From NCBI GenBank assembly GCA_028823345.1, contig JAPKBR010000018.1:1-64000 (forward strand): a stretch of DNA of 64,000 nt, read 5' to 3'. A model generated the notes under the pieces. It had not been told where the DNA came from, did no database searches, and saw only the letters and a list, made by a program, of their open reading frames with translations. Shown here piece by piece: positions 100-8,247 of this stretch; position 1 is the stretch's first letter, and each line of letters opens with the position of its first letter. The position numbers were made by a program, and so were the translations under genes. Source of the stretch: Planctomycetota bacterium (GTDB lineage Bacteria; Planctomycetota; UBA1135; GCA-002686595).

Positions 100-1923
100 T
101 CAGACCCCTGCGGCCTTGCGCTTTTCGCGCTTGCGCACGTTGGGGTCCAGCTCAATCTTCCGCAGACGGAGGGACTTGGGGGTGATCTCGACCACTTCGT
201 CATCTTCCACGTACTCGAGCATCTCTTCGAGGCTCATGCGGATGGGAGGTGCGATCTTGGCGTTGTCGTCCCGGCCAGATGCGCGCATGTTGGTGAGCTT
301 CTTGGCCCGGCAAACGTTGAGTTCGAGGTCCGCGTCCTTGCCGTTTTCGCCCACGATCATGCCTTCGTAAACCGTGTCGCCGGGAGCGATGAAGAACTTG
401 CCCCGGTCCTGCAAGCCGTCGAGGGCGTAGGCCACCACTGGGCCGTTGCGGTCAGAGATCAGGACTCCGCTCGTGCGGCGCGGGATGACGCCACCGTCCG
501 GGCCCCAGCAATCGAACACGTGGCTTAGGACCGCTTCGCCCTGGGAGAGGGTCAAGAGCGCGGTTCGTGCGCCGATCAGTCCGCGAGCGGGGATCTTGAA
601 CTCGACCTTGGCAAAGGCGCCGATGTGGGTCATGTCGAGCATCTCGCCCCGGCGGCGACCGAGGTATTCGATGATGCGGCCAGCACTGTCGGCGGGGACT
701 TCGACCGCAGCCCGTTCATAGGGCTCGCAAATCTGTCCATCGACATCCTTGAGGATGACGTGGGGTTTGCCCACGGAAAACTCGTAGCCCTCCCGTCGCA
801 TCTCTTCGATCAACACCGACAGGTGCATCACGCCCCGTCCACAGACTTCGAAAGAGTCGGCAGAATCGGTGGACCTGATCAATAGGGCCACGTCCCGGGT
901 AGCGGCGCGTTCTAGGCGCGAGACGATGTGGCGGCTGGTGACGAACTGTCCCTCGGTGCCCGCCATGGGGGAATTGTTGATGCGGAAGATCATGGAGATC
1001 GTCGGCTCGTCAATGGCGATTGCCGGGAGGGGCTCGATGTGCTCGGGATGGCAAAGGGTGTCACCGATGCCGATATCCTCGATGCCCGTGACCACCGCCA
1101 CGTCGCCCGCCATAACGGTTTCGCAGGGGACGCGCTTCAGGCCTTCGTAGCGGAAGAGGTTCTTGAGGGTCACTGTCACGGGCTTGCGGCGATCGGGGTG
1201 TGCCACTGCCAGGCGTTCACCGGCGCGCAGTTTGCCCCGGTGCACGCGGCCCACGGCAATGCGACCAAGGTAGTCATCCCGGTCAAGGGTCGCCGCTTGG
1301 AACAACACGGGACCATCGGGGTCCGTCTCGGGGATCGGCAGCTTATCCATCAGCATGTCCATCAGGGCTTGCAGATTGTCGCTGGTTTCGTGGGAATCGT
1401 TCACTGCCCAAGCGTCACGGCCAGAGCCATAGACCACGGGGAAGTCCAGTTGTTCATCGGTGGCACCCAGATCAACGAAGAGGTCGAAGATCTCGTTCAA
1501 CACATCTTCCGGCCGGGCGTCCGGGCGGTCGACCTTGTTGATCATCACCAGTGCGGGCAGCCCGTGCTCGAATGCCTTGCTCAGCACGAAACGGGTCTGA
1601 GGCATGGGACCTTCATAAGCGTCCACCAACAGCAGCACTGCATCGGCCATGGATAGGGTCCGTTCCACCTGGCCACCAAAGTCGGCGTGTCCAGGGGTGT
1701 CCACGATATTGATGCGTTGGCCGTGGTATTCGATCGCGGTGTTCTTGGCCAGAATCGTGATACCCCGTTCTCGTTCTTGGGCGTTTGAGTCCAGAACTCG
1801 CTCCTGTACATGTTGACCGGAGCGGAAGGTGCCGGCGAAGCGGAAGAGGGCATCGACGAGGGTCGTCTTGCCGTGGTCCACGTGTGCCACGATGGCCACG
1901 TTTCGGATGGTGTTGGGGGACAT
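100..1923 (-). CDS. typA: Ribosome-associated GTPase TypA/BipA
   Basis: Translational GTPase of the TypA/BipA family, which binds the 70S ribosome and is linked to ribosome assembly and stress adaptation. The 607 residues match the family's usual length. The N-terminus carries the G1 P-loop HVDHGKTT (about residues 14-21), then RGITI (switch I), DTPGHADFGG (G3) and NKVD (G4). The C-terminal half has the EF-G-like domain III/V region and the TypA-specific tail, including RGLIGARTALLTLS and ending in a lysine/arginine-rich segment. The ATG start sits a few residues before the P-loop, as expected. It appears monocistronic, with a strong hairpin after the stop and a 137-bp gap before the next gene upstream. 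Identity is secure; no oddity seen. Confidence 0.97.
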   Translation of the reverse strand: MSPNTIRNVAIVAHVDHGKTTLVDALFRFAGTFRSGQHVQERVLDSNAQERERGITILAKNTAIEYHGQRINIVDTPGHADFGGQVERTLSMADAVLLLVDAYEGPMPQTRFVLSKAFEHGLPALVMINKVDRPDARPEDVLNEIFDLFVDLGATDEQLDFPVVYGSGRDAWAVNDSHETSDNLQALMDMLMDKLPIPETDPDGPVLFQAATLDRDDYLGRIAVGRVHRGKLRAGERLAVAHPDRRKPVTVTLKNLFRYEGLKRVPCETVMAGDVAVVTGIEDIGIGDTLCHPEHIEPLPAIAIDEPTISMIFRINNSPMAGTEGQFVTSRHIVSRLERAATRDVALLIRSTDSADSFEVCGRGVMHLSVLIEEMRREGYEFSVGKPHVILKDVDGQICEPYERAAVEVPADSAGRIIEYLGRRRGEMLDMTHIGAFAKVEFKIPARGLIGARTALLTLSQGEAVLSHVFDCWGPDGGVIPRRTSGVLISDRNGPVVAYALDGLQDRGKFFIAPGDTVYEGMIVGENGKDADLELNVCRAKKLTNMRASGRDDNAKIAPPIRMSLEEMLEYVEDDEVVEITPKSLRLRKIELDPNVRKREKRKAAGV

Positions 1924-2060: not shown

Positions 2061-2882
2061 CTAACTTCCCACTGAAGAGACCCGTTTGACTTTGTCGAGT
2101 AGATAGGTCTTGAGTAAGCCCGATCGCAGGCATTCGGCCTCGAGGTAGCCCTTCTTCTTTCGCTCGAAGAGGAACCGCGGGAGCACCGGCAAGGTGCTGC
2201 CGGCTCCCGTTGCCCCCGTGTACAGCAGGTTGATCTCTTCCTCTTCGGCCACCGCCCGCTCCAATCCGCGTAAGCGACCGGGCACGCGTGGTGGGCTGGG
2301 GGTGTGGCTTGCCACCGTGATGGGCACCCTTCCTAAGAGTTTCGCTTGGGTCCAGTCGTCCGGGTTGTTCTTGGCCTCTTCCGCGCAGGCCTCAAAAACT
2401 CGCCAGCACCAAACCGCGTCATCCAACGCTCGGTGGTGGCGGCCGGATTCAAAATTCAAGAATTGGCAGAGGGTCTGCAGCTTGTGATCAGGAGAATCAG
2501 GCAGGTGGCGCTTGGCCAGGGAAAGAGTGTCGAGGAACGCGCCGCTGGGGGGCGTGACCGATCCTCGGGCGCATTCGTATGCCAGTACCCGCGCGTCGAA
2601 GGCGGCGTTGTGGGCGACCATCCAGTCGTCCCCGACAAACTCACAAAAACGCCGCAGCACAGCTGGCGCGAAATCCGCTTGCCGTACTTGATCTTCCTGG
2701 ATGCCGTGGATCTCCGTGGCCTCTGGATCGATTGGTACAGGGGGAAGAACAAGTTCCTGGAACGTTTCCTGGGCTTCCCCATCAACCACGCGCACCGCGC
2801 CGATCTCCAATAGGAACGGTGCACCGCGCACATTGGCGGTCTCGGTGTCCATGAACACCAACGACTGGAGAGCTGTGCTCAT
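2061..2882 (-). CDS. DEDDh 3'-5' exonuclease with C-terminal WYL-like domain
   Basis: A DnaQ/RNase T-type exonuclease domain fills about residues 5-170. Visible catalytic residues are D12 and E14 (DTET), D96 (HNAAFD), and H150 with D155 (HRALDD), the full DEDDh set, so 3'-5' nuclease activity is likely. After a linker rich in Pro and Arg, residues about 206-269 have the pattern of a WYL domain: a hydrophobic strand with INLLYTG, a conserved Pro-Arg-Phe-Leu-Phe, YLEAEC, then TYLLDKVKRV. WYL domains are known as ligand or nucleic-acid-sensing modules in transcription regulators. The ATG overlaps the stop of the upstream Ser/Thr kinase gene (ATGA), implying translational coupling. The exonuclease call is strong; the WYL call rests on pattern alone. 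This is not the Pol III epsilon subunit proper, given the extra domain. Confidence 0.85.
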   Translation of the reverse strand: MSTALQSLVFMDTETANVRGAPFLLEIGAVRVVDGEAQETFQELVLPPVPIDPEATEIHGIQEDQVRQADFAPAVLRRFCEFVGDDWMVAHNAAFDARVLAYECARGSVTPPSGAFLDTLSLAKRHLPDSPDHKLQTLCQFLNFESGRHHRALDDAVWCWRVFEACAEEAKNNPDDWTQAKLLGRVPITVASHTPSPPRVPGRLRGLERAVAEEEEINLLYTGATGAGSTLPVLPRFLFERKKKGYLEAECLRSGLLKTYLLDKVKRVSSVGS

Positions 2883-4999
2883 CGCAGAAGGGCTTGGAAG
2901 TCTGCGCGGCCGCGCAGTGGATCGAATGCCGGGTTGTGGGCAATCTCTCCACCGACGAAATAGCCCCGGTCTATGGCCCGTTGGAGATGTTGGACCGCAT
3001 CTTCTTCGTCTCCTAAAACCGCCAAGGCGAGGCCGCAGTGAAAGGCAACAAACCCATCCTTGGGCCCCAATTGGCGGGCCGCTGTGATGGTTTCCCGGGC
3101 GAGGTCAGCCCGGCCTAACCGTGAATAGAGCAAGCCCATGTGGGTCATGGTGTCCAGGTCCGTGGGGTGTTCCAGGAGGTGCGCCCGTGCATGATCGATG
3201 CCGCGCACGGCTTCCTCGTCTGCCAGTTCGCGCTTGTCGAGGCGAACGAGGGTCTCCCAAAGGTGGTCATAGGCAGCGGCTTCGAAGGGCCGGATGGCGA
3301 CCGCCCGTTCCAGGTGCGTCCGCGCCGAGGTGAACACTCCACCGGCTTTTTGTAGGGAGCCCATCAAACGGTGGGCAAACCACTCGTTGGGGTCGTTGTC
3401 GAAGGCCAGGCGGTATTCGCGGCGGGCGTCGCTCGTGCGTCCTTGCAGGTGATAGCCAAAGCCCAAGGCCACGTGGGCCACGGCGCTCTCCGCGTCCAAG
3501 TCCAGGGCTCTTGCGGCGGATCGGCGGGACTCGAGCAGGTACTCTTCTTCTCCTTCGTAGTGCAAGAATTTGAAGACCAAGGCCTCGGCCATCTGAGCAT
3601 GGGCGGCGGCGCACAGGCGATCCAGTTCCAAGGCTTGCCGTAAACGCAGGAGTGCCCGGGTCAACATGCGGTTGGTTCCCTGATGGACCAGGTCACGTGC
3701 CTCTTTCGCGAGCTCCTTGGCTCGCGCACCGTTCTCGGGGTTCTTGTTGTTCTTCAGGTCCCGGGCAGCGGATGCGAGCAGCTTGCGAATGACCCGGGCG
3801 GTTCCAAATGCCAAGTCCTGCTGCAGGATGATCAGGTCCGTGTCGTCTTCCTCGCGCCGGACCCGGACTGCATCGACAACCGAATCGGATGAGATCACCT
3901 TGGCCCCATCCCATTGCAGTCGTGTTAGATCCACTTGCATCGAACCAGAAGTCTCGTCCAATTTGAATTGCATCAAGACGCGCGCATCCACCTGGTTTGT
4001 TTCGCTGGGCGGAGCATCGTTGGCATTTAGGTTACGAGCACGGTTGAGCACGCCGAGGATCTCGTGGTGCATCTCTTCGGCGATCTGCGGGTGGCTGGTG
4101 GATCCCGTGCCCGTGGGCTTAGAAATGCTGATGTCGCCTCCCGATTGGGGACGCACCGTAGAACCGCTCAAACGGTCATCCAGCTGGAGCAGTGCCGCAT
4201 GCACTTCGGCACCATTGGCGTAACGGTCTTCGGGTTCGGGCTGCATGCAGTGCATCAAGAGGTCCTCGATGGCGGACTGCAAGCCGGGGCGCGCTACAGA
4301 GGGTCTCTCCGCCGGCCGAGCGTCGAGGATCGCCATGCAAACTTCTGGGAAGCTACGGCCTGGGAAGGGGAACTTTCCGGTGAACAGGTTGTAGAGCACG
4401 GCTCCCAAGGAGAAAACGTCCGAGGCCGGGGTGAGCTGGTCTCCACGCACTTGTTCTGGAGACATGAACAGCACCGTGCCCACCATCATTCCTGCCTGGG
4501 TGATGCTGGATTCGTTCTTCGTGCGCGCGATCCCGAAGTCCATCAACTTGACGACGCCATCCGAGGTCAAGAACACATTGGCCGGTTTCAGATCCCGGTG
4601 CACCATGTTGCCATGGTGCACTGCACTCACCGCATCGGAGAAGTCTGTGGCAATGCGAATGCACTCGTCGATACCAAGTAGGCGCCCGGCGATCACATCG
4701 TCAAGGGTGTGACCCTCAAGCAGTTCCATTGCGATGTAGTGTTGGTCCTCCCCTTGCTCGGTCTGCATGGTGCCCAACTCATGGATCTTGGTAATGCCCG
4801 GATGGCTCAAGGAAGCCTGCATCTTGCCCTCGCGCATGAAGCGCTTGTCGCTCATGGGGTCGAATTCAGCGGTGGAGCGCAGGATCTTGAGGGCAACCGA
4901 ACGCTCGAGCTGAGTGTCCTTGGCGCGGTAGACCTCCGATAGGGGTCCTTCTCCCAGACGGTCTTCCGTCGGGTTAAATTCAAAATGGCCGAGTTGCAT
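2879..4999 (-). CDS. Ser/Thr protein kinase with C-terminal TPR array
   Basis: Hanks-type kinase of 706 residues. The kinase domain spans about residues 5-275: glycine loop RLGEGPLSEVYRA, lysine K38 (VALKIL), catalytic loop HRDLKPAN (D136, N141), DFG (D154), and the SPEQ activation-segment end. All catalytic residues are present. Residues about 330-410 resemble the small TolB/FlgO-like domain often found between a signalling domain and TPRs, with a motif ending LIILQQDLAFGTARV. From about residue 450 to the end there are TPR-like helical pairs (ADARREYRLAFDNDP and similar). No membrane helix is visible, so the protein looks cytosolic, unlike PknB-type receptor kinases. Its stop overlaps the start of the downstream exonuclease-WYL gene by 4 bases. 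Substrates are unknown. Confidence 0.93.
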   Translation of the reverse strand: MQLGHFEFNPTEDRLGEGPLSEVYRAKDTQLERSVALKILRSTAEFDPMSDKRFMREGKMQASLSHPGITKIHELGTMQTEQGEDQHYIAMELLEGHTLDDVIAGRLLGIDECIRIATDFSDAVSAVHHGNMVHRDLKPANVFLTSDGVVKLMDFGIARTKNESSITQAGMMVGTVLFMSPEQVRGDQLTPASDVFSLGAVLYNLFTGKFPFPGRSFPEVCMAILDARPAERPSVARPGLQSAIEDLLMHCMQPEPEDRYANGAEVHAALLQLDDRLSGSTVRPQSGGDISISKPTGTGSTSHPQIAEEMHHEILGVLNRARNLNANDAPPSETNQVDARVLMQFKLDETSGSMQVDLTRLQWDGAKVISSDSVVDAVRVRREEDDTDLIILQQDLAFGTARVIRKLLASAARDLKNNKNPENGARAKELAKEARDLVHQGTNRMLTRALLRLRQALELDRLCAAAHAQMAEALVFKFLHYEGEEEYLLESRRSAARALDLDAESAVAHVALGFGYHLQGRTSDARREYRLAFDNDPNEWFAHRLMGSLQKAGGVFTSARTHLERAVAIRPFEAAAYDHLWETLVRLDKRELADEEAVRGIDHARAHLLEHPTDLDTMTHMGLLYSRLGRADLARETITAARQLGPKDGFVAFHCGLALAVLGDEEDAVQHLQRAIDRGYFVGGEIAHNPAFDPLRGRADFQALLR

Positions 5000-5094
5000 G
5001 AGGATGCGAACGGCCGGCAGGTTGGGCCTTGAAACCTTGTAACCTGTGGGGACGACCTATCGTTCCGTTGATCTTACCGACAACCGCCAGTCCT

Positions 5095-5874
5095 GTGACA
5101 AATCCATCTAAAGAACCCACTCCCTCCGAGCCCAAGGGCACTTTGAGAGGCCCTTTCGAACCCTGGGATTTTGAAGCCCTCAGTGGCTCTCGGTCGCGCA
5201 GCCCCGAATACAACGAGAAGCGACTTGAGGCTCGGCGTCGATTGTTAGCCCTGGGCAAGGATGCGGCCAAAAAGGTCAAGAGCATTGGGGTGTCCCTCGA
5301 AGCGCGCTCGAGCCTGCACAATCCTCATGCGTTCAATGGAAATCGGGTTTCCCGCCTGTGGACCTACTTGGTGCGTGCCAAAGCCGAAAAGGCGCGCTTG
5401 CGTAAGGTGCTTGGATCGGACCTGGCCAAGGATTTGGACCGGGCCTACAAGAACATCTACCTGTGCTTGGCCATCGAGCACGATGCTTTGGAGGTCAGCC
5501 TGCGCATCCACGCGGACGCTTGGTACGACGGGCAAAACCTGCTGCGCAGGGTGAAGGCCGAGGGGCTCGACGGCTGGCTCTCGGTGCTCAATACACTTGA
5601 GGGCTTCCGCTTAGGCCTGGACGATTGGAAAGGGGAATGGCGTTGCGGCAAGCTGACCCGGGAAAGCCTGGAGGAATACCTGCGCCATTACACCCCCGGT
5701 GAGCACCAGCTTCTTGTGGAACGCCGCTGGCCCGTGCCCACGGACCCCGAGCAGCGCAAGGCGATCTTGGCGGGGGAAGTGTCCGAGACCATGCTGGCGG
5801 AAGTCCTGCGCTTGGTACCGCTCTACGAATACTGCGCTTGGTCGCGCACGAGCGACTTTCTGTTTGAGTCTTGA
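5095..5874 (+). CDS. Unrecognised soluble protein, helix-rich
   Basis: I do not recognise the family. With the GTG start at 5095 the product is 259 residues; an upstream TTG at 5029 would add 22 residues rich in Pro and Leu that look like untranslated leader, so GTG is preferred. There is no signal peptide or membrane segment. The N-terminus is low-complexity (Pro, Glu, Ser, Lys) and the rest is charged and probably helical, with many Arg/Lys-Leu heptad-like stretches and a Trp-rich middle. The gene is transcribed divergently from the kinase gene and stands alone before a convergent histidine kinase gene. Confidence 0.75.
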   Translation: MTNPSKEPTPSEPKGTLRGPFEPWDFEALSGSRSRSPEYNEKRLEARRRLLALGKDAAKKVKSIGVSLEARSSLHNPHAFNGNRVSRLWTYLVRAKAEKARLRKVLGSDLAKDLDRAYKNIYLCLAIEHDALEVSLRIHADAWYDGQNLLRRVKAEGLDGWLSVLNTLEGFRLGLDDWKGEWRCGKLTRESLEEYLRHYTPGEHQLLVERRWPVPTDPEQRKAILAGEVSETMLAEVLRLVPLYEYCAWSRTSDFLFES

Positions 5875-5923: not shown

Positions 5924-7534
5924 TCAGTCCAACAGGGGCACTTCCAGACGGAAGAGCGCACCCTCGGTTTCCTTGCGGTTGCGCGCGGTCAGCTGGCCTC
6001 CGTGGGCTTCCGCTACCTTGCGCACCACGGTCAAACCCAAGCCCGCCGAATCCGGGCGGGAACGCAGTCCCGTCAAGGAGGTGAAGTCTACCTGGCCGCC
6101 ATCTTCCAAGGGCAAACCTGGGCCGTCGTCGCGCACTTCGAAGGCGATGCCGGCTGGTGATTCCAGTACGCGTAAATCGACTTGGGATGTGGCGTGTTCA
6201 AGGGCGTTGCGCACGAGATTCTCCAGGGCGCGCAAGAGACGCGAGCCATCCGCTTCGATGGTGGGTAGGCCGCGGGCCACTTCCACCAGCAGGGCGCACT
6301 TTTTCTCTTCCGCAAAGCCGTCCATGATTGCCTTTGTTTGGCGCGCGAGTTCACCAGGGGGCACGGGTTCCAAGGCTAGGGCTTTTTCCGTGTCCAAGCG
6401 CGCGATGTCGAGCAAGTCATCGGTCAGGGTGCGAAGGCGGATGGCATCGGTGAGGGCCAGGGAAACTCGCCGCTGGACCTCGTCGGTCTGTTCGCTGGTG
6501 GGAACCTGAAGCAGCTCCCCCTGCGCCCCTTCCAGGCAGGTTGTCAAGGCTGTTAGGGGGGTGCGCAGGTCGTGGGAAATCATCGCAATCCAGCGCCGGC
6601 GCTCGCTGTCCTGGTCGGTCAAGTCTCCGATTAAGGTACGCGCTCGATTGCGGAGATCGCCCAGGGCTAGGGTCAGCACAGCAATCTCGTCGCCTCCTGC
6701 GGCCGCCTCCAAGGGAGTGTCGTCCCCGTCCTCTAGGGGGGTCGCCGCGTGGCTAGCTAACATGGAAAGCCGTCGGGTCACCATGCGCGTCAACATCAAA
6801 CTGCTCAAGAGAGCCACCCCTAGAAACAGGGTTAACTCGATCCAAGCCCCCAAGCGCTCGCGGCGGGCCAGTCGCGCGGGGCTCATGCCCGCTTCGGGTT
6901 CGTCCTCGGGACTACCGGGAGCCATCAGTCCTTCGACTGGCCTGGTCCTGGTGAATAGGTGCAAGCGACCGCAGGATTCGCCGGCCATGACCACTGGCAT
7001 GATCACCTCAAACACGTTGGGGTGGTCGAGCTCTTTGGCCGCAGCCTTGAGCAGTTCGGATTCCGCGTGGGGCCGACTGATGGGGATCTTTTCACCTGGG
7101 ACCAATTCGAGTTCCGGGCTGGCGGCGATCATGCGGCCCCCAGCATCGGTCCAAGCAAAGGCTTGCCCATAAATCGCGAGCTCGCTGGCTAACTGTTCCA
7201 CGACCGCTTTGGGGGGCACCCAGTACCCCGGCGATTCCTCTTCAGACCAGGCCAGCAGACGGTGAACCAGGTCACTTTCGTCCATGGGTACGTGCAAGAG
7301 GTCCACATAGGGCGCTTGCAATTCTCCACCGAGGGTTACGTCCACATGGGGTGGTGCAGATTCCGCTGGTAAGGGCGAGAAGCGATCGAGGAGGTTTCCG
7401 CCTAAGCCCTCTAGGCTTGGGGCGGCGAAGTACGAAACCAGCAGGAGACTTACGAGGATCAGTGCAAACCGCACCCACAGTCGACGCCAGGGCCGAATGG
7501 GAGGGGCAACGGGTTGCTGGTTGGGTGCGTTCAT
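5924..7534 (-). CDS. Membrane sensor histidine kinase (HAMP/HisKA/HATPase)
   Basis: A 536-residue sensor kinase. One membrane helix lies at about residues 20-38, an extracytoplasmic sensor region of about 185 residues follows, then a second helix at about 230-250 and a HAMP-like linker. The phosphoacceptor motif is ISHDLRTPL with H321. The ATP-binding domain shows the N-box (ENLVRNALEHA, N443), the G1 box DDGPGLP (about 469-475) and the G2 box AGLGLTVVRKVAEAHGG. The sensor region is a unique sequence with no motif I can name. It lies 11 bp downstream of the OmpR-type regulator gene, so the two form one two-component system. The signal is unknown. Confidence 0.94.
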   Translation of the reverse strand: MNAPNQQPVAPPIRPWRRLWVRFALILVSLLLVSYFAAPSLEGLGGNLLDRFSPLPAESAPPHVDVTLGGELQAPYVDLLHVPMDESDLVHRLLAWSEEESPGYWVPPKAVVEQLASELAIYGQAFAWTDAGGRMIAASPELELVPGEKIPISRPHAESELLKAAAKELDHPNVFEVIMPVVMAGESCGRLHLFTRTRPVEGLMAPGSPEDEPEAGMSPARLARRERLGAWIELTLFLGVALLSSLMLTRMVTRRLSMLASHAATPLEDGDDTPLEAAAGGDEIAVLTLALGDLRNRARTLIGDLTDQDSERRRWIAMISHDLRTPLTALTTCLEGAQGELLQVPTSEQTDEVQRRVSLALTDAIRLRTLTDDLLDIARLDTEKALALEPVPPGELARQTKAIMDGFAEEKKCALLVEVARGLPTIEADGSRLLRALENLVRNALEHATSQVDLRVLESPAGIAFEVRDDGPGLPLEDGGQVDFTSLTGLRSRPDSAGLGLTVVRKVAEAHGGQLTARNRKETEGALFRLEVPLLD

Positions 7535-7545
7535 GGGTAGGGCCT

Positions 7546-8247
7546 TCAGTCCGAGGCTGCGGTGTCCGACATGCGATAACCCACGCCCCAGACCGTGTGG
7601 ATCAAGTGCGGATCCCCCGGGTCATCTTCAATGCGCGTGCGCACACGGCGCACGTGTAGGTCTACCGTGCGTGCGTCCCCTTTGTAGTCGTTGCCCCAAA
7701 TCTCATCCAATAATTGGTCCCGGGTGAAGGTCTTACCGGGATGTTGCACCAGGAACAGTAGCAACTCGAACTCCCTGGGCTTGAGGGTCAGGGATTTGCC
7801 AGCGCGATGGGCCGTGCGGGCTTCCGGGTCGACAACGAGGTCCGAGTAGTGAATAGGTCCCGAACCAAACGTTCGGCCGGAGCGCCGTAAAAGGTTTTTG
7901 ATGCGCGCGATCAATTCGGGCAGGTGAAAGGGCTTGACCACATAGTCATCCGCGCCGGCCTCCAAGCCCTGGACCCTCTCTTCGGGGGCATCTCGGGCGG
8001 TCAGAATTAGGATCGGAAGGCCGCGGCCCTTGGCGCGCAGTTCGCGTACCAGATCCAGGCCATTCCCATCGGGCAAACCCAGGTCCACGATCACTGCGCC
8101 AAACGAGGTCTCCAAAGCGACGCGGGCATCCTTGAGGGAGACGGCGACTTGGGTGTCAAAACCCTCCTGGTTCATGGCCTCCATCAGTTCACAGCGGATG
8201 CGGTGGTCGTCTTCAATCACGAGCAGGCGGTCGTCGTGTCGGTGCAT
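7546..8247 (-). CDS. OmpR/PhoB-type response regulator
   Basis: 233 residues. The receiver domain has the acidic pair D13/D14, the phosphoacceptor D55 (VDLGLPDG), T83 and K105 (VVKPF). A winged-helix DNA-binding domain fills the C-terminal half, with the family patterns LTLKPREFELLLFLVQHPGK, TRDQLLDEIWG, RTVDLHVRRVRTRIE and VWGVGYRM. It is the first gene of a two-gene unit with the histidine kinase. The gene is divergent from the transhydrogenase genes across a 268-bp gap, so regulation of those genes is possible but not shown. Confidence 0.95.
   Translation of the reverse strand: MHRHDDRLLVIEDDHRIRCELMEAMNQEGFDTQVAVSLKDARVALETSFGAVIVDLGLPDGNGLDLVRELRAKGRGLPILILTARDAPEERVQGLEAGADDYVVKPFHLPELIARIKNLLRRSGRTFGSGPIHYSDLVVDPEARTAHRAGKSLTLKPREFELLLFLVQHPGKTFTRDQLLDEIWGNDYKGDARTVDLHVRRVRTRIEDDPGDPHLIHTVWGVGYRMSDTAASD

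Follow-up and report, generated by a model that had tools for sequence, protein, structure and literature searches.

The window analysed here, a stretch of 64,000 nucleotides from the genome of a Planctomycetota bacterium, carries near its start a gene for a Hanks-type Ser/Thr kinase and, directly behind it on the same strand, a gene for a predicted exonuclease with a WYL domain, here called exo-WYL (Table 1). The end of the kinase gene (...CTT CTG CGA TGA) shares ATGA with the start of exo-WYL (ATG AGC ACA); no obvious Shine-Dalgarno sequence lies right upstream of that start, and scans for promoters and terminators returned matches at chance level only. The order seen at this locus, with W3 divergent from the kinase and the kinase followed by exo-WYL and then bipA, is kept across the window's family of Planctomycetota, and the adjacency of kinase and exo-WYL is not due to chance, because many genera of that family have their genes in this order too.

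Table 1. Features of the kinase/exo-WYL locus, in window coordinates
Feature	Position	Strand	Remarks
bipA/typA	100-1923	-	next gene downstream, 137 nt past the exo-WYL stop
exo-WYL gene	2061-2882	-	273 aa; DEDDh 3'-5' exonuclease (predicted) with C-terminal WYL domain
WYL domain of exo-WYL	2079-2273	-	residues 204-268; helix and five strands (Sm-like SH3 barrel), predicted
DEDDh (RNase_T) domain of exo-WYL	2397-2858	-	residues 9-162; PF00929
ATGA overlap of kinase stop and exo-WYL start	2879-2882	-	4 nt
Hanks-type Ser/Thr kinase gene	2879-4999	-	706 aa; soluble, C-terminal TPRs
TPR region and TPR end-of-group domain	2885-3712	-	about residues 430-705
Protein kinase domain	4217-4966	-	residues 12-261; PF00069
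W3	5053-5874	+	divergent conserved protein; steady neighbour of the kinase

Beyond W3, and adjoining it, is a histidine kinase gene (5924-8247, minus strand) preceded by a response-regulator-like ORF. A reading of the locus in terms of defence was tried and rejected: PADLOC matched only the generic kinase and DEDDh domains, with no system-specific model, and the named neighbours, TypA/BipA and the two-component system, are housekeeping genes.

The kinase matches PF00069 (E 4.5e-46) and has several TPRs, with TPR_END_plus at its C-terminus. Its glycine loop, VALK motif with the invariant lysine, HRDLKxxN, DFG and SPE are all intact, and its hydrophobicity (maximum Kyte-Doolittle value 1.25) nowhere reaches the level of a membrane helix. 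The N-terminal part of exo-WYL matches PF00929 (E 2.7e-27) and retains all five catalytic residues, D12, E14, D96, H150 and D155. AlphaFold models the whole protein with a pLDDT of 89; the top Foldseek matches to the exonuclease part are DnaQ epsilon and ExoX, the nearest solved structures to exo-WYL are the PolC exonuclease and DnaQ epsilon, and the match of the AF2 model to the latter (2gui) has a TM score of 0.84 on the target. By fold and catalytic residues exo-WYL belongs to the DEDDh (DnaQ-like) 3'-5' exonucleases, a class whose activity is here predicted from sequence.

The C-terminal tail matches PF13280 at E 7e-5 and 23.2 bits, just over the curated cut-off of 21.8, and in the exo-WYL family alignment all but one of the 28 proteins match the same model (at E 0.01). 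With the family profile, PafBC (6sj9) is matched at E 2.4e-11, followed by PafC, BrxR, an AAA ATPase (8bnv, C-terminal match) and DriD. Modelled alone, the tail forms a helix and five strands (pLDDT 85), and the best 30 Foldseek matches to this model are all WYL proteins (BrxR, PafBC, CapW and DriD among them), with Hfq lower down. Judged by Pfam, profile match and predicted structure together, the tail is a WYL fold. The preliminary description of this DNA had thus identified its parts correctly, in that a soluble TPR kinase overlaps, by ATGA, a DEDDh exonuclease with intact catalytic residues and a WYL-like tail; the search that it proposed for the pair in other planctomycetes found it beyond the source genome, in many genera of the family.

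The WYL domains of PafBC and SiwR bind single-stranded DNA through two arginines spaced by three, both of which are needed (PMC11804915, PMC10693628). The corresponding residues of PafC, R201 and R204, align with residues 261 and 264 of exo-WYL (window positions 2091-2102), which are L261/K264 in this genome and L261/R264 in some relatives, with arginine at both in 33 of the 51 family copies; from this alignment, binding of single-stranded DNA in the manner of PafBC may be weakened in the window protein. One divergent exo-WYL (locus L136, genome G306) has F, E, H and T in place of the Y, K, Y and R of the WYL motif.

Whether the two genes form a unit was assessed in 81 genomes of the family, 29 of them of high quality, with kinase orthologues called by a profile of the kinase C-terminal part and exo-WYL genes at the loci recovered by HMM searches of stop-to-stop frames. 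The kinase occurs in 75 of the 81 genomes and in all 29 of high quality, exo-WYL in 55 and 20 respectively; both genes are present in 53 genomes, the kinase alone in 22, exo-WYL alone in two (in one of these, G021, the contig ends just upstream of the gene) and neither in four. Some of these MAGs are fragmented and single absences are weak evidence, but the high-quality subset gives the same pattern, with the kinase lacking exo-WYL in 9 of 29. Where both occur they lie close together on the same strand in many genera, at spacings from -4 nt to several kb, the -4 nt spacing being found in six genomes, all of the window's genus. A conserved gene between kinase and exo-WYL was sought and none was found; the spacers carry different, unrelated ORFs in different genera, one of which (in L059) looks by eye like a Fur regulator. 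Long open frames in two genomes had suggested a fused kinase-exonuclease; in G003 the two genes overlap by 4 nt but are read in different frames, and about 1.7 kb separates them in G035, so that fusion was rejected for both.

The two genes also part company. In four genomes (G382, G441, G442 and G443) exo-WYL sits beside bipA and apart from the kinase; where kinase and exo-WYL lie far apart, exo-WYL is in some genomes still by bipA and the kinase still by W3; and in two loci that lack exo-WYL (L144 and L145) bipA comes directly behind the kinase, at 58 and 219 nt. The steadier neighbours are bipA for exo-WYL and W3 for the kinase. At 35 of 51 family exo-WYL loci bipA comes behind exo-WYL within 240 nt, in the same order. 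Among the 43 loci with enough DNA upstream, W3 and the kinase lie within 1 kb of each other in 36, including 11 of the 15 fetched loci where exo-WYL does not adjoin the kinase. It is strongly conserved (mean column identity 62% over 20 family members) and more widely spread in the phylum than the kinase, with 36 of 199 planctomycetote genomes carrying it; searches of Pfam, NCBIfam and PADLOC gave no match to it, and searches of solved structures no significant one. Since it accompanies the kinase more constantly than exo-WYL does, W3 may offer the better clue to the kinase's role.

Many families of Planctomycetota besides this one also have full-length exo-WYL, as does a single actinomycetote MAG (L006). 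No relative of the kinase was found near it there, within the DNA fetched around the loci, and no orthologue of the kinase was found outside the family among 199 genomes of the phylum (E 1e-60). In a sister family exo-WYL often stands between the gene of a queuosine-precursor transporter, upstream, and that of an NYN-domain nuclease, downstream; four of its loci (L073, L075, L076 and L077) have a conserved gene behind exo-WYL, which in L077 is the NYN-domain nuclease, and in L073 the transporter gene is just upstream. A profile search of viral contigs found no relative, and the matches in phages and plasmids are distant, at less than 60% identity and mostly over the exonuclease part only. Many family genomes retain the kinase but have no exo-WYL, and elsewhere exo-WYL occurs with no such kinase; the co-occurrence expected of a dedicated two-gene kinase-nuclease system is therefore not seen, and the two are probably not one dedicated machine.

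On balance, and with moderate confidence, we favour the view that exo-WYL is a 3'-5' exonuclease of the DnaQ/ExoX/RNase T (DEDDh) kind, and an accessory one because the family can dispense with it. Single-stranded nucleic acid is the most likely ligand of its WYL barrel, which would either hold the substrate for the nuclease site or gate that site. The upstream kinase would be a core signalling protein specific to the family, a neighbour of exo-WYL on the chromosome that is loosely linked to it and not an obligate partner; in the window's genus the two are probably carried on one mRNA. The role of exo-WYL is presumably a housekeeping one, and its neighbours (bipA, the queuosine transporter and the NYN nuclease) incline us weakly towards RNA and translation rather than DNA. 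That much of the family retains the kinase-exonuclease order could reflect some functional link, and exo-WYL may have a regulatory link to the kinase, which the data do not require.

A stronger link was inferred in the preliminary description, which proposed a kinase-controlled nuclease module, possibly for DNA stress or defence. Spelled out, this would mean a kinase whose TPRs detect stress and which phosphorylates the exonuclease in response to DNA damage or for defence. The ATGA overlap in the window, adjacency of the pair over much of the family and the intact kinase motifs are all consistent with such a module, as are the action of WYL domains in DNA-damage and phage responses (PMC11804915, PMC10693628) and a few well-conserved serines and threonines in the exonuclease, such as T119, T137 and T259. 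However, this proposal finds no support in the distribution of the genes, which are lost and separated independently: 22 genomes keep the kinase without exo-WYL, exo-WYL occurs elsewhere without the kinase, other genes are inserted between them or the pair is apart altogether, and the named neighbours are housekeeping rather than defence genes. We therefore regard a kinase-controlled module as unlikely. Still further from what we would expect is a part in replication, whereby exo-WYL would stand in for a missing epsilon subunit as the proofreading exonuclease. It is the sole PF00929 match, as well as the sole PF13280 match, found in the source genome, and its closest solved structures are the PolC exonuclease and DnaQ epsilon; but the source genome is 88% complete, and PF00929 matches nothing in 18 of the 81 family genomes, among them 4 of the 29 of high quality, so that exo-WYL is not an obligate proofreader and this role appears very improbable.

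The remaining alternatives turn on catalysis. All five catalytic residues are retained in 46 of 51 family copies, and among the other five one has its N-terminal residues cut off by a contig end. The genus g23 (G028, G434 and G435; loci L061, L159 and L160) has G, Q, A, R and D at the catalytic positions, so four of the five residues (D12, E14, D96 and H150) are lost, while the frame is open in all three genomes, the WYL motif is kept and the neighbouring kinase is intact. Across the entire protein its dN/dS, an approximate ratio by the Nei-Gojobori method from three sequences, comes to about 0.04-0.08, with a similar value when the exonuclease part is taken separately. Judging from this ratio, the g23 protein, with a dead nuclease domain, is still under purifying selection, so loss of catalysis need not make the protein useless, at least in this genus. 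A separate loss, by different changes, is seen in L068 (G026), with E, L, V, G and R at the catalytic positions and the WYL motif again kept. These lineages would suit a protein led by binding, in which the WYL barrel and exonuclease fold serve mainly as a sensor or scaffold that binds nucleic acid and catalysis is dispensable in some lineages. Against this, the 46 catalytically complete copies imply that catalysis is selected for in most lineages, and as a general account we think it improbable. It is likewise doubtful, and if anything slightly more so, that exo-WYL works mainly as a regulator that binds nucleic acid and is tied to the pathway of the kinase, and that in g23 it would be a pure pseudonuclease about 13 nt behind an intact kinase; if true, the family would document the conversion of a nuclease to an adaptor in signalling. 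An accessory exonuclease remains the account we prefer, with the proviso that nuclease activity may not be the sole role of exo-WYL, because a dead copy can stay conserved, and g23 offers a natural test of what the protein does without catalysis.

The comparison of 81 genomes shows how little the overlap of two genes, taken by itself, says about whether they form a functional module. It also provides, across one planctomycete family, a conserved example of the little-studied fusion of an exonuclease with a WYL domain.

The components of this locus have analogues in known systems, from each of which they depart. With PknB-type Hanks kinases that carry TPRs, the window kinase has in common a kinase domain and C-terminal TPRs, but it lacks PASTA domains and a membrane segment, and its score of 264.7 bits against the PknB_PASTA_kin model is far under the cut-off of 450. 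With PafBC, DriD, BrxR, CapW and SiwR, exo-WYL shares the WYL fold, by profile and structure search; these are transcription factors with an HTH, whereas exo-WYL has no HTH and its WYL domain is partnered by a nuclease, and the first of the arginines with which PafBC-type domains bind single-stranded DNA is leucine in the window's genus. With DnaQ epsilon, the PolC exonuclease, ExoX and RNase T it shares the fold and all five catalytic residues, but differs in its C-terminal WYL domain, and its scores against the closest NCBIfam equivalogs fall far under their curated cut-offs. A search of the literature in which few subscription journals were covered found no paper on the kinase/exo-WYL gene neighbourhood. 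The closest precedent lies in the main-text passages on fusions of Makarova et al. 2014 (PMC4012209), where fusions of WYL to 3'->5' exoRNase domains are listed and WYL is proposed to sense nucleotides or nucleic-acid fragments; the planctomycete family, the kinase and bipA neighbours and the dead-nuclease lineage are absent from those passages. The fusions listed there have the same combination of WYL and 3'-5' exonuclease as exo-WYL, an architecture thus already known in 2014, to which the window protein adds a member.
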